The notes under the pieces were generated by a model. That model was not told the DNA's origin. It searched no databases and was given only the letters and a program-made list of their open reading frames with translations. From IMG/VR virus record IMGVR_UViG_3300046012_000117, positions 1-45,008 of that record: a DNA stretch of 45,008 bases; one strand, given 5' to 3'. Positions 1 to 45,008 of the stretch are shown piece by piece. Position 1 is the first letter of the stretch. The number at the start of each line of letters is the position of its first letter. A program made the position numbers and the translations under genes. The DNA is from a virus.

Positions 1-126
1 TATTCCGGGCTCGGCGGCAACTTCGTCCTGACCGCGACCGATGACCCGGCCGGCTCATGGACCGGCGCGACGCTCACGGGGGCCGGGGACATCAACAAGG
101 CCGCCGCAGGCGTGCTCTACCTTCCG
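1..126. repeat. Terminal identity with 44881-45006 (circular assembly overlap)
   Basis: Bases 1-126 are identical to 44881-45006; base 127 (a) differs from 45007 (t). The copy lies inside one coding frame that runs unbroken across the join. This is best read as the overlap left when a circular or circularly permuted genome is assembled, not as a biological terminal repeat. Confidence 0.9.
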
Positions 127-1650
127 ACCAATCCGACCGCGGGCGACACGCTGGTGCTCGGTTCTCACACCTACGAGTTCCGCAACGATATTGTTTCGCA
201 GCCGGTGAATTACGCGGTGCTGATCGGCGCGACCGCCGCGGCGACGCTCAGCAACCTGGTGGCCGCGATCAACAACACGGCGGGCGCCGGCGCGGTATTT
301 CCGGCCAGCAACACCATCAATCCGGACGCCTCCGCAACGCTGCTCACGCCCACCAAGGCGCTGGCGGTGGCACGCACAGCGACCGCCTCCGGCGATGACG
401 TAGCCACGACCTCGGCCGTCACCGCTTCGGTATGGAGCAACGCCACGCTGGTTCAGGCGCAGGACGGCTCGGCCACCAGCCCCATGCTGGCGCTTATCGG
501 CCCCACCAATTCAGATTCACTCGCCAACATGGTGAAGCTGCTGAATTTCACAGGCACACCGGGCGTGGACATTAGCCTCGCCGCAACCACCCCCGACCCG
601 TCCGTGTCGGCGGCGTCCGAGTCTACGTCGCTCACCGTGACCTCGCGCGTCGATGGCGGCACCGCCATCACGACCACAATTTCACCAGATCCCGCCGCCG
701 CCTTGGCGTGGGGCGCCGGGACGCTGGTAGTCACCGCTCCGCAGACCAAAGGGCAAGGCGTGCTCACCCTCACCCCATCGGAGACGGTTGAGAACGTCGT
801 GCTCGACGTGGCCGGCACGTTCTACGGCTGGGGCGACATCAGCACGGCGGACCAGGACGGCACCAGCGGCCATCCGTTCCTCGCGGTGGTGGGTGGCAGT
901 ATCCCTGAATCGTTGGTGAACCTCGCCACTGTCATCAACTTCTCCGGCGTGCAGGGTGTGGACTACAGCACCGCAGTCGGCGGCCACAACACGCTCGTCA
1001 CCGCCTCCGTGGCGACTGACCCCGACAGCGGGGAGCCGGGCAACGTCCTGACCATCACGGCGCGGAGCGAGGAGACGGACGGCAACAGCATCGTGATCAG
1101 CGTGTTCGCGGGCTCGATCATCACGGCCAGCGGCGCGACGCTGACGGGCGGCGGCACGCACACGCTCCACGGCGTCGAGATACCGGACGGTGACGCGCCG
1201 ATCGCGGTGGCGAGCTGCGCCGGATTTCTGCTGCTGGCGATCGGCGATTCGCAGAAATTTTTCTGGATACTGCCCGGCGAGACGACCATCGACGCGCTCA
1301 ACTTCGCCTCGGCGTCCTTCGCTCCCGATAACCTGAACGACATCCTCGCGGTGGCCGACCAGGTGTGGCTGCTTGGCGCTGCGTCGATTGAAGTGTGGTA
1401 CCCAAATTCCGCCGCCACCGACCCCACGCAGGCGTTCATCCCGATTGCTGGCCGGGCGTTTGCCAACGGCTGCCAGGACCGCACCGCCGTCCGCATCCGC
1501 GATACCGTGATCTTCGTGGGCGCCGACAATGTTGTATATTCGAGCGGTGGGAACCATCTCTACTACACGCAGAGTGGCACCATGCAACGTGTCAGCACGC
1601 ACGCGATTGAGGAACGTATCCGCGTGCAACTAGCTCGAGAGGCAAGCTGA
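1..1650 (+). CDS. P22 gp10-like tail accessory protein, 3' part (continues from 44113 across the circular join)
   Basis: This frame is open from base 1 and continues in register from the start codon at 44113. The joined protein is 805 aa. Residues from about 655 to the end match the P22 gp10 (packaged-DNA stabilisation, PF11134-type) pattern as I know it: TIDALNFASASFAPD, a VWLLGAASIEVWY stretch and a terminal RVSTHAIEERI. These proteins form a ring of the neck/tail hub below gp4. Between the N-terminal propeller part and this part lie about 430 residues of Thr/Ala/Gly-rich repeats with a recurring LANLVAAI or LVNLATVI helix, which P22 gp10 (472 aa) lacks. The protein stops at RVQLAREAS, where P22 gp10 would continue into its C-terminal domain. 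That domain appears in the gene at 3801. The stop overlaps the next ATG. Confidence 0.85.
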   Translation, partial: YSGLGGNFVLTATDDPAGSWTGATLTGAGDINKAAAGVLYLPTNPTAGDTLVLGSHTYEFRNDIVSQPVNYAVLIGATAAATLSNLVAAINNTAGAGAVFPASNTINPDASATLLTPTKALAVARTATASGDDVATTSAVTASVWSNATLVQAQDGSATSPMLALIGPTNSDSLANMVKLLNFTGTPGVDISLAATTPDPSVSAASESTSLTVTSRVDGGTAITTTISPDPAAALAWGAGTLVVTAPQTKGQGVLTLTPSETVENVVLDVAGTFYGWGDISTADQDGTSGHPFLAVVGGSIPESLVNLATVINFSGVQGVDYSTAVGGHNTLVTASVATDPDSGEPGNVLTITARSEETDGNSIVISVFAGSIITASGATLTGGGTHTLHGVEIPDGDAPIAVASCAGFLLLAIGDSQKFFWILPGETTIDALNFASASFAPDNLNDILAVADQVWLLGAASIEVWYPNSAATDPTQAFIPIAGRAFANGCQDRTAVRIRDTVIFVGADNVVYSSGGNHLYYTQSGTMQRVSTHAIEERIRVQLAREAS

Positions 1651-3797
1651 TGGCTCAGTTGTGGGCGGATTCCTTCGATCATTATGGAGCTTCGCTCGAC
1701 AACGCGCTGGGTGGCGCGTGGGCCGCCTTCGGCACCGGCGCGTCCATCGGCACGCCGAGCTACGGAGCCCGCACGGGGCCATACGCCCTCAAGACGGTGC
1801 AAGGCACCACGGCGCGGCGCGTGCTGGGTGGCGACGTGGTGACGCTGATTGTGTCGCTGGGCTACTCGACGGAGAGCCTGCCGAGTGACAACAACACCCG
1901 CATCATGGCGATCCTCGCCAGCGACGCCTCGCAAATCGGCTGGATTGGGCTGACATCTGACGGCCGGCTGTTCCTCGTGGCCCCGACCGCATCGGGCGGC
2001 GGCGACACGATGGCGACGACCGCAGGCCCGGTTATCGTTGCGGGGTCGTGGCAGCACATCGAGGCCAAGTTCGGCGTCACCGCGGGCACGCTCACGCTCA
2101 ACGTGGACGGCACGACGGTCCTGACCGCCAGCAGCTTCGGCGGGTATCGCAAGGCATTCGGCGCCGATCCCGAGACAACCTGCGCGCAGGTGCAGTTCGG
2201 TGTGGCCGGCGGCGGCGGCGCGAACGCTTGGTATGACGACATAATCACGCGCGACACCACCGGGGATTTCAATAACGACATCCTCGGCGACCGCCGCGTG
2301 GCGACGCTGTTCCCCATCGCGGACGGCGACGCGCAGGGCTGGACGCCGCACCCGCGCAAGAAAATCGGCACTGGCATTCTCGACCTGCTCACTGACGACG
2401 CCTCGGATACCGCAGTTGTCAGCGCGGCCGACGCCACGGCGCTGCGCCTCGCGGCCGCGGAGTACACGGTCGAGGGCTTCGTGCGGTTCCGCAGCCTCCC
2501 CACCACGACCAACAAGGCTGTGCTGTTCGGCAAGTGGCAGGAGACGGGCGACCTGCGGGAGTGGCAACTATACCTCGGCGGTCCCGATCTCGATGCGGGG
2601 TTCTTGACATTCCGCACCTCCACCGATGGCACCAGCGGCACAGTGACGAAGGTGCATTCGTGGCCGTGGACCCCCGACATCGATCGTTGGTACCACGTCG
2701 CCGTGGTGCGCACCGGGACCGACAGTCTGCTGTTCATCGACGGCGTACAGCAAGGCCCGGCCGTCACCGACAGCGCGACCTATTTTGGCGGCGCGGCGAC
2801 GCAGACACTTGGCGCCGAAATGTCGAGCGCCAGCGCGGTCGTCGCCAACACGCATTTTGACGGGTTCATGGACGAGGTGAGGATCAGCAATGGTTTCGCC
2901 CGATACACCACCGACTTCACCCCCACAGCCGTCGCGTTTGGGCGTAATTCTTCTGACGATCCTCACTTTTCCACTGTGGGGCTCCTTGCTGGCTTCGATG
3001 CTGGAGTGGTGGACGAGTCGTCATTCGCCCGGACCCTGACGGCGCGCAACAGCGCCGCGCGCTTCGCGGTGGACGATGGCGATTTCGGCTTCCAGGTCAT
3101 CGACCAGGCGACGCCACGCGATGACACGTTCATCGAGGCAGATGTGCTGTTCGCCACCGGCATCTTCCAACTCGACGCCGTACCCACGGCCGACGAGACG
3201 GTGACACTCGGCGGCGTGACCTATACGTGGAAAGGCTCTGTCGGCACCACGGCCAACGAGGTGAAGATCGGCGCCGACGCCAATGCGAGCCTCGCCAATC
3301 TCGTGGCCGCGATCGTCGCGGGCGACGGCGCCGGGACCACCTACGGCTCCGATACCGTGGCCAACGCCGACGCCACGGCGGTAACGCTGCCTGACTTGCA
3401 GATCGAAGCCACGGCTGTAACAGCGGGGACCGCGGGCAACGCTGTCGTAAGCACCGATACCTGCGCGGACGGCTCGTGGCTGACCGGCGCGACGCTCGCC
3501 GGCGGCCAAGACCTCCCCGGTGTGTCGGAGTTCCAGCTTAACCGGCTGAGCGTCGACACCACGATCCTCTCGGCGCTGAGCATCGTGCATCGCGCCTACA
3601 AGAGCGACGCGGGCACCGCCAAGATCAAAGTCTCGCTGGTCGACGTGGACGGTGGCGTGGACCTTGGCACCGAGCGCACGCTGAGCACCAATCCGACCTA
3701 CCACGAGGAGGTGTTCGACACCGACCCCACCACTTCGGGCGTGCTGACGCCGCTGTTCCTGCTGGGCGCGAAAGTGCGCGTCGACCGCACGGAGTAA
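1650..3797 (+). CDS. LamG/concanavalin-A-like tail protein with adhesion repeat
   Basis: 715 aa. Residues about 1-215 look like one ConA/LamG sandwich (SWQHIEAKFGVTAGTLTLNV, then NAWYDDIITRD). Residues about 265-435 are a second, with YTVEGFVRFRS, RWYHVAVVRTGTDSLLFIDG and DGFMDEVRISNG, the typical LamG strand order. Residues about 500-625 are a third module (VTLGGVTYTW, SLANLVAAIVAGDGAGTTYG) that matches the repeats of the gp10-like protein just upstream. A role as a virion glycan-binding or adhesion protein is inferred. The ATG overlaps the upstream stop (TGATG) and follows GAGAGG. The gene sits between the two halves of a gp10-like protein, so it is a probable insertion into the tail gene. 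Confidence 0.75.
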   Translation: MAQLWADSFDHYGASLDNALGGAWAAFGTGASIGTPSYGARTGPYALKTVQGTTARRVLGGDVVTLIVSLGYSTESLPSDNNTRIMAILASDASQIGWIGLTSDGRLFLVAPTASGGGDTMATTAGPVIVAGSWQHIEAKFGVTAGTLTLNVDGTTVLTASSFGGYRKAFGADPETTCAQVQFGVAGGGGANAWYDDIITRDTTGDFNNDILGDRRVATLFPIADGDAQGWTPHPRKKIGTGILDLLTDDASDTAVVSAADATALRLAAAEYTVEGFVRFRSLPTTTNKAVLFGKWQETGDLREWQLYLGGPDLDAGFLTFRTSTDGTSGTVTKVHSWPWTPDIDRWYHVAVVRTGTDSLLFIDGVQQGPAVTDSATYFGGAATQTLGAEMSSASAVVANTHFDGFMDEVRISNGFARYTTDFTPTAVAFGRNSSDDPHFSTVGLLAGFDAGVVDESSFARTLTARNSAARFAVDDGDFGFQVIDQATPRDDTFIEADVLFATGIFQLDAVPTADETVTLGGVTYTWKGSVGTTANEVKIGADANASLANLVAAIVAGDGAGTTYGSDTVANADATAVTLPDLQIEATAVTAGTAGNAVVSTDTCADGSWLTGATLAGGQDLPGVSEFQLNRLSVDTTILSALSIVHRAYKSDAGTAKIKVSLVDVDGGVDLGTERTLSTNPTYHEEVFDTDPTTSGVLTPLFLLGAKVRVDRTE

Positions 3798-3800
3798 CCG

Positions 3801-4631
3801 ATGTCATGGGCGCGCACGTCACAAATCGCGGCCCTCGGCACGACCTCTGGCGCGTCTGCGCCGCGGGTCACGCAGATCGCGATGCTGGCCGTCTACGGGC
3901 CGCCGGAGTCGAAGCGTGCATTCCTCTCGCAACTCGTGGGGCTGGCTACCGTGGCAAATGAGACGACGGCCCGCGTGACGCAGGTGGCGGCGCTCGCCGT
4001 CTACACCACAGGCATTCCGGCGCCGTCGCGGCGGCGCGCGTGGGCGTTCGATTTCGACGGTCATGCGTTCTACGTGCTCGACCTCGGCCAGGAGGGCACG
4101 TTCGCATTCGACCTCACGACTGGGACATGGTGTGAGTTCGCCACCACGGGCTACGACACTTGGAACATGCGCAACGGCACGCTGTTTAACGGCAAGGTTA
4201 CTGCGGGAGACTCTATCAACCCGATCGTGTGGCAACTCGACCCCGACCAGCCACTTGACGAGGGCTGGCGCACCGTCGCGCACATCGTCACCGGCCTCAT
4301 CGACGTGCGCAACCGCAAAGCCATGCGCCACGACGCGCTGCGCCTCACCGCCTCCGTGGGCCAGCTTGGCGAGGCCACGGGGGCCGAAATCCGTATGCGT
4401 TTTTCGGACGACTTCGGCAAGACGTGGACCGACTACTTCACCATCGCGCTTGTCGACAAAGCCTACACGCAGGAGCTTGCGTGGCGCTCGCTGGGGCCGA
4501 TCTCCGCGCCCGGCCGCGTCATCGAGATCAGCGACACCGCGGGGCCAATCCGCATCGACGGCTGCGATGCTGAGATTGAAGGACTGAGTGACGGCGAGCA
4601 ACCAGGAGGCCAAGGTGGCAAACCGGGTTGA
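3801..4631 (+). CDS. P22 gp10-like C-terminal domain protein, separate gene
   Basis: 276 aa. From about residue 85 it carries the C-terminal signature of the gp10 family: GHAFYVLDLGQEGTFAFDL, TGTWCEFATTGYDTWNMRN, QLDPD, then a strand-rich end with SDDFGKTWTDYF and RVIEISDTAGPIRIDGC. Its first 80 residues are unlike gp10: a short motif recurs (PRVTQIAMLAVY, ARVTQVAALAVY and degenerate copies), of a kind seen at the ends of LamG-type phage tail proteins. I infer that this is the missing C-terminal part of the 805-aa protein, cut off by the LamG gene at 1650, and that the two polypeptides assemble together. The ATG lies 3 bases after the upstream stop. Confidence 0.7.
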   Translation: MSWARTSQIAALGTTSGASAPRVTQIAMLAVYGPPESKRAFLSQLVGLATVANETTARVTQVAALAVYTTGIPAPSRRRAWAFDFDGHAFYVLDLGQEGTFAFDLTTGTWCEFATTGYDTWNMRNGTLFNGKVTAGDSINPIVWQLDPDQPLDEGWRTVAHIVTGLIDVRNRKAMRHDALRLTASVGQLGEATGAEIRMRFSDDFGKTWTDYFTIALVDKAYTQELAWRSLGPISAPGRVIEISDTAGPIRIDGCDAEIEGLSDGEQPGGQGGKPG

Positions 4632-6753
4632 CCCCCTATCGTTCCAGGTTCCGATCACGAACCCGGACGGCACGCCGACGCTGGAGTTCCAGCGTAAGTT
4701 CAACGCCCAGCGCGACGACAACACCGCGTCGGACGCCGCGGTGGCGGCCGCCCAGGCCGCTGCGGCCACCGCACAGAGCGACGCCACGGCTGCACTTGAG
4801 GTGGCGAAGGCCAAGCCGGACACCTTCCTCCAGCTCACCGACACGCCCGACACTTACACCGGGCAGGCTGGCAAGGTAGCCAAAGTCAACAGCGACGAAA
4901 GCGCGCTGGAGTTCGGTGACGCCTCCGCGGTGGCGGCTTTCACCGACCTCACCGACACGCCCGACGCCTACACCGGGCAGGCCAGCAAGGCCGTGCAGGT
5001 CAAGGCCGACGAGACGGGCCTGGAGTTCGTCGCGGTCGGGGCCGGAGCCGGCGCGCAGCTCGACAAGGACCGCTATGGGCCGCCCACGGCGAGCCAATTC
5101 GCCACGCTCGTCGGGACCAACTCGGAAGATCCGACCGTGGCCGACACCATGACGCGCGGAATGACAATCTCTTTCGGCGTCTCGCCCGCGAGCGGCGACA
5201 ACGTGCGCCAGGTGCTCAAGGCGGCGCCGAGCAGCACCGACTACAATATCATCGCCCGGCTCCAGCCGGTGATGCTACAGCACAATTTCAATTCGGCCGG
5301 GATATGCGTGACGGACGGTACCAAGATCGTGTCGTTGACGGTTGACAACGCGCACAGCACCAATCTCGGCTGCGCCATTGCGGTTAACCGCTGGTCGGAT
5401 GCGACGACGTTCTCCAGTACACGAGTTACCGGCAGCGCCATTTTCATGCCTGAGTGGCTACGCATCGGCATCGTCGGCGGCAAGCCCACGACGTTCTCGA
5501 TCAGCCAGAACGGCACCGACTGGATCGAGGTTCTGAGCGAGGACCAATCGGGGTTCCTGACCCTCACCAGCGTCGGGTTCGTAGTCTACATGAACCGCTC
5601 CAGCGGAACCGAGGCGGTGAGCGGCACCGAGCAACTGGTGCAGAACGTCCTCTACTACAGCGATCCCGACATCACGCCGACCGTCAAGTATCCCGGCGTG
5701 AAGGGCGACACGGGTGCCACCGGAGCGGTGGGCACCAACGGAACCAACGGAACTAACGGAACCAATGGCGCTGGTGTTCCGACTGGTGGTGGTGCGGCCG
5801 ACGTGCTGACCAAGATCGACGGGACCGATTTCAACACGCAGTGGAGCACGCAAGCCAGTATCCAGGCGTCGTTCCAGACCGCCTATGATGCGCGCTATCT
5901 GCAACTCACGGGCGGAACGCTAAGCGGCAATCTCAACGCCACTGTGACGGGCAGTAGCACTCTGACCTCGACCTTTGCAGGCGAGAGCACAACTCAATTC
6001 GCGCTTGTTCGCGCCTCGGCGGATGCGCTCGATCCTGACTTCCTATTCAGAAAGACAAGAGGCTCAATAGCCTCACAGACGGGTGTTCAGCAGAACGATG
6101 CTTTAGGCCGCTTGATCTGGCAAGGCAACTTCAACGGCACCAATGTCACCGCAGCCTTCTTGACCGCAACCGCGATCAACGCGGCCCCTGCCAATACGGC
6201 GAGAGACACGCAGGTTTCGCTGCTCGTCTGTAAGACCACCGGCGGGGCATCCGCCATAGCTAACTGGGATTGGACGAATGGGTGGCAGGCGTTCGGGGCT
6301 AACACCGTCATAGGCATCAACCGCCACTTCTGGCTCCGCGAGTATGCTTCCGCCAGTCTGCCCTCGGCCACGCAATCGAGCATGCTGGCCTCGTCGAGCG
6401 ACGTGCCCGGTGGCGCAATCACCTCCGATGGTGTTGGCTGGCACTCTCCGGGGGTCAAGCGGCTCCGCGCCGTGACTGCTAATACAACAATCAGTATTCC
6501 AGCGGGATGGGCAATTACAGACATTTACATTGCCAATACAACTGCCAATGTTGTTACCGGGTTGATTATCGGAACGACTAGCGGCGGCAGTGACGTACAT
6601 ATTTCAACTAATATTGCTGCTAATGCGTTAAACGCCACTGTGGCAGCTATTACTATATTCTCCCGCACAGTGGCGCAGACCTTGTTCATCCAAGCCTCAG
6701 CGTGGAATAGCGCGAGCGTGGAGTTTTCCTTTGTTCTAAGAAAGGTGTTCTAA
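4615..6753 (+). CDS. Tail fibre / receptor-binding protein with collagen-like segment
   Basis: 712 aa from GTG 4615, which has AGGAGG five bases upstream; an in-frame GTG at 4588 gives nine more residues and a poorer site. The N-terminus (DPLSFQVPITNPDGTPTLEF) is typical of phage fibre proteins at the tail attachment end. An Ala-rich coiled segment follows, then two copies of a 35-40 residue repeat (LTDTPDTYTGQAGKV and LTDTPDAYTGQASKA). A middle region ends in about nine Gly-X-Y triplets (GATGAVGTNGTNGTNGTNG), then a C-terminal part of about 300 residues. The last 270 bases are clearly richer in A and T than the rest. A role in host recognition is inferred from architecture and position. It could instead include the tail-needle function, since no separate gp26-like gene is seen. 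Confidence 0.7.
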   Translation: MANRVDPLSFQVPITNPDGTPTLEFQRKFNAQRDDNTASDAAVAAAQAAAATAQSDATAALEVAKAKPDTFLQLTDTPDTYTGQAGKVAKVNSDESALEFGDASAVAAFTDLTDTPDAYTGQASKAVQVKADETGLEFVAVGAGAGAQLDKDRYGPPTASQFATLVGTNSEDPTVADTMTRGMTISFGVSPASGDNVRQVLKAAPSSTDYNIIARLQPVMLQHNFNSAGICVTDGTKIVSLTVDNAHSTNLGCAIAVNRWSDATTFSSTRVTGSAIFMPEWLRIGIVGGKPTTFSISQNGTDWIEVLSEDQSGFLTLTSVGFVVYMNRSSGTEAVSGTEQLVQNVLYYSDPDITPTVKYPGVKGDTGATGAVGTNGTNGTNGTNGAGVPTGGGAADVLTKIDGTDFNTQWSTQASIQASFQTAYDARYLQLTGGTLSGNLNATVTGSSTLTSTFAGESTTQFALVRASADALDPDFLFRKTRGSIASQTGVQQNDALGRLIWQGNFNGTNVTAAFLTATAINAAPANTARDTQVSLLVCKTTGGASAIANWDWTNGWQAFGANTVIGINRHFWLREYASASLPSATQSSMLASSSDVPGGAITSDGVGWHSPGVKRLRAVTANTTISIPAGWAITDIYIANTTANVVTGLIIGTTSGGSDVHISTNIAANALNATVAAITIFSRTVAQTLFIQASAWNSASVEFSFVLRKVF
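5731..5766 (+). repeat. 9-bp tandem repeat coding Gly-Thr-Asn
   Basis: Four consecutive 9-base units (ggcaccaac, ggaaccaac, ggaactaac, ggaaccaat) encode the GTN triplets of the collagen-like part of the fibre. Such repeats can change copy number by slippage without breaking the frame. Confidence 0.85.
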
Positions 6754-6754
6754 G

Positions 6755-7018
6755 ATGGCCGCAACCGTGAATATCACTATCGTCATGGGGCAGACGACCT
6801 ATGGCGTCACCGAGAGCCTTTCGTCGGCCGACCTGACGCGGCTGGTCACGGCCTACGCGGCTACATTCGGCACCGTAGGCGATAACGTGGCGACGGGGCT
6901 GGCGTGGGCGAACCAGCTTATCGGCCTCACCAAGCAGACCGTCCACGCCTACGAGGAAACTCAGGCGGTGACGGCGGCGCGGGCCGGCGTGGCCGACATC
7001 GTAATCACCGGAACATGA
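6755..7018 (+). CDS. Small hypothetical protein after the tail fibre
   Basis: 87 aa, function not recognised. The sequence begins MAATVNITIVMGQTTYGV and is otherwise helical and Ala/Thr-rich (LTRLVTAYAATFG, GLAWANQLIGL), with no cysteine and no clear membrane segment. The ATG follows the fibre stop by one base and the end overlaps the next gene, so it is translated in the tail operon. A minor virion protein or fibre-assembly helper is possible from position only. Confidence 0.6.
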   Translation: MAATVNITIVMGQTTYGVTESLSSADLTRLVTAYAATFGTVGDNVATGLAWANQLIGLTKQTVHAYEETQAVTAARAGVADIVITGT

Positions 7019-7452
7019 CGCGCCTCGAAACCCAGGCGGCGCTCGCCGCTATCCTGAGCGATCCCGAGTTGCTACGTGCCCACGCCCCTGCGCTTGCGCG
7101 GCGCGTGGCGGCTGGTATAATGGAGGTTCCTGGCGCCATAGTGCTAGGTGACATCGACGGCATGATGGTGTTCTACCCGGAGGGTGAGGGAAGCTATGAC
7201 AGCCACTATTTGTTCCCGCCTTGGGCACGAGGGCGTGATCTTCTACAAAGGACTCGGGTATTTCTGCGAGGAATGTTTTCGGGAGGGGCGCGACGCATAT
7301 CCGGCGAGACACCAATCGGAAACCTCCCCGCCCGCCGCATCAACCGCACCCTCGGCGCCGTCCCCGCCGGAGAATGCGTTAACTCAGAAGGCCAAAAGTG
7401 CATCCGCTACGTCTTGACGCGAGAAATGTTTGAGCGTAGCGTGGTGAAGTAA
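7015..7452 (+). CDS. P22 gp14-like protein (putative GNAT-fold / DUF2824 type)
   Basis: 145 aa from ATG 7015, overlapping the upstream stop by four bases. The chain runs from an N-terminal helix pair through MVFYPEGEGSYDSHYLFPPWARG to a stretch (GETPIGNLPARRINRTLGAVPAGEC) that resembles the acceptor end of acetyltransferase-like phage proteins. Its place, after gp10 and the fibre and before the ejection proteins, matches P22 gene 14, annotated there as a head or DNA-stabilising assembly protein of DUF2824 type. The family call rests on gene order plus weak motif resemblance. No active-site proof is visible. Confidence 0.5.
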   Translation: MTRLETQAALAAILSDPELLRAHAPALARRVAAGIMEVPGAIVLGDIDGMMVFYPEGEGSYDSHYLFPPWARGRDLLQRTRVFLRGMFSGGARRISGETPIGNLPARRINRTLGAVPAGECVNSEGQKCIRYVLTREMFERSVVK

Positions 7453-7474
7453 CGTAGTAACAGTGATCATACAA

Positions 7475-7783
7475 ATGCCACGCGGGCGACCTAGAACAGA
7501 AGGGCTGTGTAGCTGGGAAGGGTGTTGTCTAGATGCGCGCACCAAGGGCATGTGCCTAAAGCACTACCAGCGATCCCGGTACGCAAAAAATCCAGAAAAA
7601 TTTCGTGCGGTAGGGCGCGCAAGACAGCGCGCTTACAACGCCAGGACGCAATGCTACGTCATGCGTCTACGCACGGTGGCGTGGGCCCTTTGCAAAGAGC
7701 TTGGCCTGGAATCTCTAGTCCGAGAAAAGGTAAAACAATGCTTTCCACAGAATACGCAGGTCAAAAAGGAGCAACGCGGTTAA
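7475..7783 (+). CDS. Small cysteine-rich basic protein
   Basis: 102 aa from ATG 7475 (an in-frame GTG lies at 7463). It opens with MPRGRPRTEGLCSWEGCC, resembling an AT-hook core (GRPR) next to a cysteine cluster. CLKHYQRSRY follows, so C-x4-CC-x8-C-x2-H could bind a metal. The chain is strongly basic, suggesting DNA or RNA binding; similar N-termini occur in small HNH-related phage proteins, but no HNH core is present. The gene is lower in GC than the virion genes and starts an accessory islet inserted between the gp14-like and gp7-like genes. Confidence 0.55.
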   Translation: MPRGRPRTEGLCSWEGCCLDARTKGMCLKHYQRSRYAKNPEKFRAVGRARQRAYNARTQCYVMRLRTVAWALCKELGLESLVREKVKQCFPQNTQVKKEQRG

Positions 7784-8256
7784 GTTGGTCACAGTTTGGC
7801 CCCCGCGATCTTCTAGCCCAACTCGCAGACGAGCACCCAAAGGCATCGCGAGAGCGCCTGCGCCAGTTATTTTCCGACGCGGTTCGGGCTGATGATCGTT
7901 GGCTTGATGGCTGCGTTGAGTATGCTTTTACGAACAGCATTAACGCGCTTGAAAACCAACGGGTCCGGGATGCACGACAGCCTGCTGCACGTCCGTCAGA
8001 CGTGGCCAAGAAAATGGTGCCAGAGGCAATGAAAGTATTGCTTCTCAACATGGAAATGCCAAACGGCAAGCGTCTGCGCTACTGCACCGGCCGTGAAGTC
8101 GCTAAATTTGGCAGCTTCTATACCAAGATCGCTAAGAAAGCTGGTGCCAAGCGCATCGGTGAGGTATACGACGAGGCGCAACTGCGCGCCGCGCTCGGGG
8201 GAAGTGATGAAGGGCAAGGGGTTTCGGAAGCCGGAAATATCGGCAATCCTCGCTGA
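7738..8256 (+). CDS. Hypothetical accessory protein
   Basis: 172 aa from ATG 7738, with AAAGG eight bases upstream and a 46-base overlap with the previous gene. The N-terminal half is helical (RDLLAQLADEHPKASRERLRQLF). The C-terminal half has the form LNMEMPNGKRLRYCTGREVAKFG followed by a basic helix, a pattern I have seen in small phage proteins of unknown role. I do not recognise the function. It belongs to the lower-GC islet between head-completion and ejection genes. Confidence 0.6.
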   Translation: MLSTEYAGQKGATRLSWSQFGPRDLLAQLADEHPKASRERLRQLFSDAVRADDRWLDGCVEYAFTNSINALENQRVRDARQPAARPSDVAKKMVPEAMKVLLLNMEMPNGKRLRYCTGREVAKFGSFYTKIAKKAGAKRIGEVYDEAQLRAALGGSDEGQGVSEAGNIGNPR

Positions 8257-8479
8257 GAAGGACGTTTGGCTAGAGATGGGGCCTTTTCTCGACGGTATAC
8301 GAGAGAAAATCGTGAGTCGAGGCCATCCCGACGAATTGGTGTGGCCAGCTCTGGCAGATCGGCTGATGCGACTTTCCTGTGAAATGGTGGCCCACAAATT
8401 AACCAAGGAATTGTGGCTCGAGTTCGCCGGCGGAATGTACGACCTATGTGAGCGTGAGCACCAAAAGAGAAGTTCATAG
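8207..8479 (+). CDS. Small helical hypothetical protein
   Basis: 90 aa from ATG 8207, which follows a G-rich site (GGGGGAAG) and overlaps the previous gene by 50 bases. It begins MKGKGFRKPEISAILAEKDV and is mainly amphipathic helix, with two cysteines too far apart for an obvious metal site. Function unknown. Tight overlaps with its neighbours show it is co-translated in the accessory islet. Confidence 0.55.
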   Translation: MKGKGFRKPEISAILAEKDVWLEMGPFLDGIREKIVSRGHPDELVWPALADRLMRLSCEMVAHKLTKELWLEFAGGMYDLCEREHQKRSS

Positions 8480-8482
8480 CGT

Positions 8483-8671
8483 ATGTTCCTCAAAGTCACC
8501 AGCACCCTCGGCCACACCTTTTACGTGAACGCTGACCATATCCGCTGCATTTACGGCGACAGCCGCGGCGGCTCGGTGCTGAGCATGACGGTCGGCGACA
8601 AGCTGGCCCTCAAGGAACCGCCTGACGACTTGGTGCGGCGGTTGACGAACCCCCTCCCCACCACTACCTGA
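8483..8671 (+). CDS. Small FlbD-like strand protein
   Basis: 62 aa. The sequence MFLKVTSTLGHTFYVNADHI, then SVLSMTVGDKLALKEPPDDLVRRL, follows the strand pattern of the FlbD family (PF06289): a small beta protein with conserved VNADHI-like and VKE-like positions. FlbD proteins are linked to flagella in bacteria; the role in phages carrying similar proteins is unknown. The call is by pattern only. The stop codon lies inside the putative regulatory motif of the late promoter at 8642-8673. Confidence 0.5.
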   Translation: MFLKVTSTLGHTFYVNADHIRCIYGDSRGGSVLSMTVGDKLALKEPPDDLVRRLTNPLPTTT

Positions 8672-43082: not shown

Positions 43083-43372
43083 TGGCGCGCTTCCCAAGCT
43101 GGCCCGCGTTTCGCTACGGCCCGAATGGCGAGGCACAGATATTCCAGCGGCCCGAGGATGTGCCGGAGGGCTGGAAAGACAGTCCTGGGGCGCACTTCGA
43201 GCCGCCCCCGGCCGTCAAGCCGGCGCCGATGACGCGCGAGGAGGTGGTTGCGGCGCTCAAGGCGCGAGGTGTCGAGTTCAAGCGGAACGCCCCCACGTCC
43301 GTCCTATGCGACCAACTGAAAGCCCTCGGCGATGACGACGTGCAGCGATCTGATCCAAGCGGCGCTCCGTGA
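43082..43372 (+). CDS. Small protein with HeH/LEM-like C-terminus
   Basis: 96 aa from ATG 43082, overlapping the previous stop. The first half is Pro-rich (FPSWPAFRYGPNGEAQIFQR). The second half MTREEVVAALKARGVEFKRN, APTSVLCDQLKAL fits the HeH/LEM helix-extended-helix domain (PF12949 type) often found in small phage head proteins. A minor head-completion role is possible. It overlaps the next gene by 41 bases. Confidence 0.6.
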   Translation: MARFPSWPAFRYGPNGEAQIFQRPEDVPEGWKDSPGAHFEPPPAVKPAPMTREEVVAALKARGVEFKRNAPTSVLCDQLKALGDDDVQRSDPSGAP

Positions 43373-44108
43373 AGGGAATCTCCTCGCCGCCGGCGTCTCT
43401 CCGACATCCGTAGAGCAGAGCGAGGCGCTTGGGCGGCTCAATGCCTACAACAAGCAGCTTTTCGGCGTCCTGATCGGCGAGTACAATCAGGACTGGCTCG
43501 TGCCGGCACCGCAGCGCACCGCGCCGCAGGCTGCCAACTACCCACAACTCCCCTACCCGATCGACACGCTCGGCGACGCCATCCTGCCATCGAGCAGCGA
43601 CCTGAGCGATAACATCTGGCCGTTCCCGCCGCAAAACTCGCGGCTGGTTGTGGCAGTGACCTCCGCCGCAACGGTCTATTTCCCCGAGGCGCCGAATGAT
43701 GGCGCGCGTATGAGCTTCGTGGCGACGCCGGAAATGAGCGACACGCTGACGCTCGACGGCAACGGCAAGGCCATCGAGGGCGTGGCCACTAAGGACGTGA
43801 CCGCGGCCGACACCGGGCGCAAGTGGTTCTTCCGCGCCGACTTGGCGAATTGGGTGGCGCTCACGACGCTCGGCCTCACTGACACGCCACCGCTGCCCGA
43901 CGAGTTCGACGACCTCTACGTGACGGCGCTCGCCATCCGCCTGTCGTCGCGCTACGGGCAAGACCCGCGCGCCGGCACGCAGAACACCTACAAGGACATG
44001 CTCAAGCAGGCGAAGACCCGCTTCGCGCAGAGCGGCAACACCATCTATCGCTCGAACGAAATACCGCGGGGCTTGGAGAGCTACCTCACCGGCCGTTGGC
44101 AGTGGTGA
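43332..44108 (+). CDS. P22 gp4-like tail accessory / head-completion protein
   Basis: 258 aa (P22 gp4 is 166). Start MTTCSDLIQAALREGNLLAA, AEALGRLNAYN-type helix (EALGRLNAYNKQLFGVLIGE), and C-terminal FDDLYVTALAIRLSSRYGQD followed by a long helix (YKDMLKQAKTRFAQSG). This matches the helical neck adaptor that binds under the portal in P22-like phages and precedes gp10. The extra middle segment (about 100-160) is a strand-rich insert. ATG 43332 lies in the end of the previous gene. Confidence 0.75.
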   Translation: MTTCSDLIQAALREGNLLAAGVSPTSVEQSEALGRLNAYNKQLFGVLIGEYNQDWLVPAPQRTAPQAANYPQLPYPIDTLGDAILPSSSDLSDNIWPFPPQNSRLVVAVTSAATVYFPEAPNDGARMSFVATPEMSDTLTLDGNGKAIEGVATKDVTAADTGRKWFFRADLANWVALTTLGLTDTPPLPDEFDDLYVTALAIRLSSRYGQDPRAGTQNTYKDMLKQAKTRFAQSGNTIYRSNEIPRGLESYLTGRWQW

Positions 44109-44112
44109 CGCG

Positions 44113-45008
44113 ATGGGGGAGGTCCAGGTCAAGCTCGGCATCAACGCATACGCGCGCACCTACTCGGGCGAGCCGGTAATACGCCAGCTTAACCGCTTCG
44201 TAGAAAAGAGCGGAGTGAATCAAGTCGAGCAGCGCATCAGCCTGGCGCGGCCGGGCACGTCGCTGCTTGGCACCTACGGGGCCGGGCCGATACGCAGCAC
44301 ATGGAGCCGCCCCGACGTGTTCGGCGGCGACCTGCTGGTGGTGTCGGGCGCCGAACTCTATCGCGTCGCTGCTGACGGCACCGCGCATGTGGTGAGCGGC
44401 GACATCGAAGGTGGCTCCGGCGACGTGAGCATGGACGTGGTATCGACCGGCGGTAGCCGCCGTGTTTTCATCGCGGACGGCACGCTGCTCCAGTATTATG
44501 ATGGCGGCACGCAGGCGAGCGGCACATTCACTGCGGCCGTGCCGCCCCATCCAGACATCTATGCCCAGGTGATCGAGATCGGCGGGCTGCACTACGGCTG
44601 GGGCGCGCTCGGCAAGAGCGCCACCGGCACGTTCGCGCTGAGTGCCAACGCCACGGCAACCAAAACCGTCACGCTCGGCACCACTGTCTACACCTTCGTC
44701 GTCTCGGCGGCGGCAGCCAATGACGTGAAGATCGGCACCGACGCGGCTGCCACTCTGGCGAACCTCGTGGCTGCGATCACTGCTGGCACCGGCTCAGGCA
44801 CGCTGTACGGCGCGGGCACGGTCGCCAATCCCGACGCCACCGCAGCGATTTCCGGTAGCGACGTGCTGGCCACTGCGGCCTATTCCGGGCTCGGCGGCAA
44901 CTTCGTCCTGACCGCGACCGATGACCCGGCCGGCTCATGGACCGGCGCGACGCTCACGGGGGCCGGGGACATCAACAAGGCCGCCGCAGGCGTGCTCTAC
45001 CTTCCGTC
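44113..45008 (+). CDS. P22 gp10-like tail accessory protein, 5' part (continues at base 1)
   Basis: Codons 1-298 of the 805-aa protein that wraps round the circular join. Residues 1-165 look like the gp10 propeller start: MGEVQVKLGINAYARTYSGE, LARPGTSLLGTYGAGPIRST, LLVVSGAELYRVAADG, GSRRVFIADGTLLQYYDGG. From about residue 175 the first adhesion-type repeat begins (KTVTLGTTVYTFVVSAAAAN, DVKIGTDAAATLANLVAAIT, GTLYGAGTVANPDAT). The same repeat type is in the LamG gene. The ATG follows the gp4-like stop by four bases. It is cut off only by the window edge. Confidence 0.85.
   Translation, partial: MGEVQVKLGINAYARTYSGEPVIRQLNRFVEKSGVNQVEQRISLARPGTSLLGTYGAGPIRSTWSRPDVFGGDLLVVSGAELYRVAADGTAHVVSGDIEGGSGDVSMDVVSTGGSRRVFIADGTLLQYYDGGTQASGTFTAAVPPHPDIYAQVIEIGGLHYGWGALGKSATGTFALSANATATKTVTLGTTVYTFVVSAAAANDVKIGTDAAATLANLVAAITAGTGSGTLYGAGTVANPDATAAISGSDVLATAAYSGLGGNFVLTATDDPAGSWTGATLTGAGDINKAAAGVLYLP
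44881..45006. repeat. Second copy of the 126-base terminal identity
   Basis: Identical to bases 1-126 and inside the gp10-like frame. It marks the circular join of the assembly. Confidence 0.9.

Follow-up and report, generated by a model that had tools for sequence, protein, structure and literature searches.

The sequence analysed here is an IMG/VR virus record (hereafter the window, meaning the whole stretch of 45,008 bases), whose two ends overlap such that positions 1–126 and 44881–45006 are identical over 126 bases, with a mismatch at position 127. Across this join a reading frame stays open to yield an 805-aa protein with its gene start at 44113, and the nearest relative, a single uninterrupted 829-aa gene in locus L002, aligns collinearly with the joined protein throughout, the join included (59.7% identity, residues 1–805 versus L002 10–829). 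Because the L002 gene is continuous through the same region, we take the join to be real, and the end overlap, open frame and collinearity together bear out the first-pass annotation, which had drawn an 805-aa gene through it. This gene is followed by a LamG/adhesin-type gene, whose ATG overlaps the TGA stop (1648–1650) of the first, and by a 276-aa gene (3801–4631), with an adaptor candidate upstream and a tail-fibre gene downstream (Table 1).

Table 1. Features at the divided gp10 locus of the window, with the evidence for each.
Feature	Position	Strand	Evidence and remarks
gp4-like tail adaptor candidate, directly upstream	43332..44108	+	mainly position and conserved synteny; weak match to head-tail adaptor Ad3
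gp10-N half, first part (residues 1–256 up to 44880)	44113..45008	+	terminal overlap, phrog_578 match, L002 collinearity; 44881–45008 repeats window 1–128
start of ~510-aa insertion in gp10-N, continuing 1 to about 1152	44521..44880	+	insertion point after L005 residue 135
gp10-N half, continuation (residues 257–805)	1..1650	+	phrog_578 match; N-core HMM E 2e-51
interposed 715-aa LamG/adhesin-type gene	1650..3797	+	Pfam, PHROGs and shared-domain match
lead of gp10-C gene, four RxSQ-type repeats	3801..4034	+	each repeat predicted as one long beta strand, pLDDT 55–67 (low confidence)
gp10-C core, blade-like strands and C-terminal sandwich	4035..4571	+	profile match, core HMM, model, fold match
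tail-fibre gene, downstream	4588..6753	+	probable start GTG at 4615

Within the continuation of the first gene, the gp10-N core lies at about 1165–1635, while the LamG gene comprises a phrog_2448-like N-terminal part, a LamG_3 domain (PF13385) at about 2433–2891 that scored 62.6 bits against a Pfam cut-off of 27.6, and, at about 3153–3569, a domain shared with the gp10-N insert. The coat and portal of the window are P22-type by Pfam, and the order coat, gp4-like adaptor, gp10 that marks the P22 gp10 family is found in the window and, as synteny, in its relatives, with a gp4-like homologue found ahead of gp10-N in 54 of 58 testable split loci with a middle gene and in 8 of 8 fused loci. At the downstream edge, a tail-fibre ORF from 4588 would overlap the end of gp10-C, and the GTG at 4615, which stands behind an AGGAGG, is the likelier start.

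We evaluated the two flanking proteins by profile and found that they match complementary parts of one family. Against phrog_578 (‘head closure Hc3’ in PHROGs, the P22 gp10 group), the 805-aa protein matched profile positions 134–280 of 486 (8e-28) and the 276-aa protein positions 289–472 of 486 (1.5e-26), while in PDB profile searches Pam1 and Pan3 were matched by both half profiles and P22 gp10 by the N half. Since a Pfam search gave no usable match for either half, the assignment to gp10 rests on PHROGs, PDB profiles and folds. For the latter, AlphaFold2 single-chain models were built from alignments of relatives and compared with the PDB by Foldseek. The N-half model (L005, 295 aa; pLDDT 83.9) was propeller-like with a terminal helix at 275–294, and the C-half model (window, 276 aa; pLDDT 76.7) held four long beta strands in the repeat lead (at low confidence), a four-strand unit at 80–113, further strands at 125–146 and a sandwich at 160–259. 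Chains of the gp10 family (Pan3, Pam1, P22 gp10, Sf6 gp8) ranked first for both models, with C-half values of 1.8e-12 (9vyg), 1.6e-9 (7eeq), 2.1e-9 (8eap, P22 gp10) and 1e-7 (Sf6 gp8) before a drop by orders of magnitude to 7e-3 for the first hit outside the family, and N-half values of 4.9e-17 for 9vyg (rmsd 1.7, 232 columns) and 6.6e-10 for P22; generic propellers also matched the N-half model. Matches of the C half to BNR/sialidase proteins came from one short Asp-box-like motif, and we did not read them as function. Profiles and folds agree with the earlier proposal that a P22 gp10 homologue is divided here into two complementary genes that flank a LamG gene, and the profile searches of each part, set beforehand as a test, placed the 276-aa protein in phrog_578 rather than in an unrelated family. 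Judged by sequence, the halves are gp10 homologues in a two-gene state, and because the characterised phrog_578 members that we checked are each one polypeptide, we file the window as ‘split gp10’ rather than as an ordinary member of that family.

The length of the 805-aa protein is due to about 510 aa of inserted repeated domains, its gp10 core being residues 1 to about 136 plus 645–801, and short relatives such as L005 have an N half of only 295 aa. The insertion site, after L005 residue 135, is occupied by an extra piece in 33 of 39 N rows, mostly of 128–151 aa and in some cases larger, with the window at about 510 aa. A domain of ~95–140 aa is common to this insert and the LamG protein (LamG residues 502–640 versus gp10-N residues 170–309: 50% identity, 143 columns, E 1e-22). 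A second copy of the shared ~140-aa stretch in the hub insert also matches the LamG protein.

Profile searches placed the end of the N half near P22 gp10 residue 287 and the beginning of the C half near Pam1 residue 273. In the models, about five blades' worth of strands precede the terminal helix of the N half, and the C half runs from a four-strand blade-like unit through more strands to the sandwich domain, which comes last. From this strand layout and the profile end positions, the break lies inside the beta-propeller, in an inter-blade connection, and a strand count made against the seven-bladed nozzles of T7 and SU10 (PMC6702177, PMC9509320) would put it between blades 5 and 6. The first-pass annotation had instead set the break where the C-terminal domain should follow the propeller, a position that the strand layout moves into the propeller itself.

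To place the window among its relatives, we surveyed split and intact loci by IMG/VR scans and our own HMMs for the N and C cores, with identical copies removed. This revealed 71 split and 11 intact non-identical viral loci. Their ratio is not a prevalence: split forms served as the basis of the queries, 80 of the 116 hits in the second viral scan were kept, and some of the loci are closely related to each other. The break falls at one fixed point in all 71 split loci, where intact relatives have a linker of 2–12 aa: the N gene ends within about 4–15 residues of a ‘..IEERIR’ motif, and the C core begins ‘RAW.FDFDGH.FYV’. Every split locus carries a module at the break, as a separate gene in 63 and fused to the C half in 8, with L003, where the contig ends within the N gene, an additional fused case. 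No split locus among the 71 lacked a module, and no intact gene among the 11 had one at the break point; neither did the relatives portray the 805-aa protein as full-length without a C-terminal domain. In the annotated phage collection the C half was detected in 23 records and the N half in 33, with no split gp10 in the annotated phage records examined, and gp10 was unsplit in every cultured or named phage examined. As read from these loci and the tree below, the divided gp10 with a module at its break is a trait of a large branch of short-tailed phages, nearly all of them uncultured, and a whole-clade state where a single event in one phage had at first been supposed. Paper searches in an open-access library, from which many structural papers are missing, turned up no earlier report of a split gp10.

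Outside viral records, two Sphingomonadaceae genomes carry a divided gp10. In the draft genome of Sphingomonas segetis YJ09 (L131, NZ_WJSQ01000003.1), found by a genome scan with the N-half alignment, the split form lies on a 47.2-kb phage-like contig that also has terminase, portal and coat genes and whose ends do not overlap; its genes are an N gene of 286 aa, a LamG-type middle gene and a C gene of 246 aa with an RLTQ/RLSQ lead. The second genome (G191) has the fused form within a 4.36-Mb contig. The gp10 relatives in Sphingomonadaceae are mostly single genes, a first genome scan with the C-half alignment as query gave no match, and genomes drawn at random, class-wide and phylum-wide, yielded no further split case.

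The modules themselves differ in kind between separate and fused states. With one unrelated exception, in L026, the separate middle genes belong to a single homology cluster of LamG/phrog_2448 type and mostly come in two sizes, about 350 and 705–800 aa; the LamG type is a putatively sugar-binding kind of module. Fused modules are mostly unrelated to this cluster and in several cases to each other (groups L003/L061/L077/L078, L006, L027, L090 and L107), with L116 having a fused LamG-type module and one repeat before its C half. In L086, the LamG gene is separated from the gp10-C gene by two extra ORFs (439 and 314 aa; 6276–8539), so more than one gene can occupy the slot at the break. A BFVD entry that matches the gp10-C model, A0A6J5R6I7, is an uncultured-phage protein of 879 aa under the name ‘Lactonase, 7-bladed beta propeller’ and is probably another module fused to a C half.

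C genes that lie beside a separate middle gene begin with a lead of about 50–115 residues bearing R-x-S/T-Q repeats. Strict RxSQ motifs number 1.02 per C lead versus 0.083 in shuffles and 0.014 in the last 120 aa of middle proteins, and the lead had no real match in the phage collection or in PHROGs. The earlier statement that RVTQ-type repeats are usual at the ends of LamG proteins is not upheld, since the motifs belong to gp10-C genes and are nearly absent from the middle proteins. Motif-bearing leads occur in 48 of 63 C genes beside a separate middle gene versus 2 of 9 fused ones (p 0.003, by a crude test with a loose motif definition). This distribution and the low-confidence model suggest that the lead is likely a docking part for the separate module.

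We then considered how the split arose and how its parts have evolved. In a tree of the joined N and C cores the split rows group together, except that the intact L101, on a long branch, falls inside; one clade of all split rows was not rejected (p-AU 0.315, or 0.427 once prophage rows were included). When four long rows were taken out, a single branch with support 97 separated split from intact forms. These results are consistent with one clade and compatible with a single split event, the placement of L101 being either a misplacement or a re-fusion. In L101, which is the closest of the intact relatives, a tandem pair of gp4-like adaptor genes (1401–2862) recalls the dual tubeA of PhiGT1. A single origin of the fused forms was rejected (p 2e-29), so fusion of modules to the C half has taken place on several occasions. 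Purifying selection acts on both halves (dN/dS mostly 0.03–0.2), and the module evolves faster, with values usually 2–3 times higher. Across the 39 double-LamG loci, mean identity was 49% for N, 45% for C, 38% for the middle protein and 24% for the lead, and distances in the same loci correlated at 0.82 for N–C and 0.79 for N–middle, values so close that correlation alone does not pick out an N–C contact. N, middle and C are a triad inherited together, and the module changes more quickly than the halves of the hub, as a host-contact protein would be expected to.

The reading that we consider probable is a gp10-type hub made from two co-folding chains, with the break used as a module slot. The N gene would encode the N-terminal part together with most blades of the propeller, the C gene the last blade or blades and the C-terminal sandwich, and the two chains would most likely co-fold into one closed propeller, six such N+C pairs (in a presumed 1:1 stoichiometry) then forming the hub ring. 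The slot would usually take a separate LamG-type adhesin, most likely held by the beta-repeat RxSQ lead, and in several sublineages an unrelated module is fused straight to the C half instead; either way, the module would sit on the hub and take part in host-surface contact. There is good ground to suppose, as first proposed, a hub ring built of two polypeptides, on which the adhesin would dock. A large module at an inter-blade position would need room, since the inter-blade loops of T7 gp12 lie at subunit contacts (PMC6702177). It is possible, and we put it forward tentatively, that the divided hub serves as a dedicated docking slot, which would carry exchangeable host-binding modules on the hub rather than on separate tailspikes, held by lead or by fusion, such that swaps leave the N half untouched.

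Other arrangements of the same genes have to be weighed against co-folding chains. Both halves might be in the virion and form no joint propeller, the N half making the channel ring by itself and the C half, with its RxSQ lead or fused module, serving as a distinct collar to anchor the adhesin. In the fused loci, the module-bearing protein indeed includes the C half covalently, as it would an anchor, and the match of generic propellers to the N-half model suits a ring of its own; we nevertheless think this unlikely, as the C half retains the blade-like strands needed to close the propeller, with invariant residues among the first of them, and is constrained like the N half in dN/dS. We give little credence to the middle gene as a passive passenger, a tolerated insertion whose product stays off the hub while gp10 works in two pieces. 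That would accommodate the 63 of 71 loci with a separate middle gene and the variable frame relations between genes, but it sits poorly with a module in every split locus, with the way unrelated modules have repeatedly been fused to the C half and with the domain common to the LamG protein and the hub insert.

Explanations that do away with the division altogether fared worse. The halves follow one transcription order and the genes are tightly spaced, as they might be if a single hub chain were still produced through recoding, intron splicing or protein splicing; yet an Rfam search of the window gave no hit to introns or any other RNA family, the domains of the middle gene are LamG rather than intein, and frame relations vary among relatives (41/15/7 for N-to-middle, 40/16/7 for middle-to-C), which makes a conserved frameshift unlikely and leaves us regarding a single chain as highly improbable. 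That the N gene spans the window ends could raise the suspicion of assembly error, misjoined contig ends or pseudogene decay, which we treat as negligible given that L002 is uninterrupted through the same region, that the same division turns up in two bacterial genomes as well as in 71 loci drawn from many metagenomes, and that dN/dS is far below 1.

Hubs of the gp10 type seal the genome of short-tailed phages, and their genes have been described among the most conserved in podoviruses (PMC6702177). If the two-chain reading is true, a propeller can be assembled from parts and serve as a plug-in site for host-binding modules, making split gp10 a natural split-propeller system; it would also provide a marker, at the sequence level, by which to recognise a group of phages that is mostly uncultured, with Sphingomonas segetis YJ09 as a possible bench model.

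Among known systems, the window is most directly comparable to P22 gp10, Sf6 gp8, the Pam1 needle head and the Pan3 stabilization protein (phrog_578, ‘tubeB’), which it resembles in profile, in predicted fold and, for the P22 gp10 group, in gene position after a gp4-like adaptor and a P22-type coat. Members of that group, however, are single chains of about 440–510 aa with a short linker, where the window has two genes and a module. The T7 gp12 and SU10 nozzles (PMC6702177, PMC9509320) are similar in having a seven-bladed propeller hub with extra domains and docks for fibres inserted into it, and the insert in the window's N half, at counted blades 2/3, lies near the nozzle-domain insertion of SU10 (and T7); their insertions are in-frame within one chain, whereas here the chain is broken and the module is separate or fused to the C half only. 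The middle gene groups by profile with phrog_2448/LamG (PF13385) virion proteins, whose relatives elsewhere (e.g., Tetraselmis viridis virus S20) occur in other gene contexts and not at a hub break. Sulfitobacter phage PhiGT1, with its dual tubeA hub (PMC10386132), is likewise a long-lived podovirus hub variant found by comparative genomics, differing in that PhiGT1 has a duplicated adaptor (tubeA) and the window a divided tubeB/gp10.
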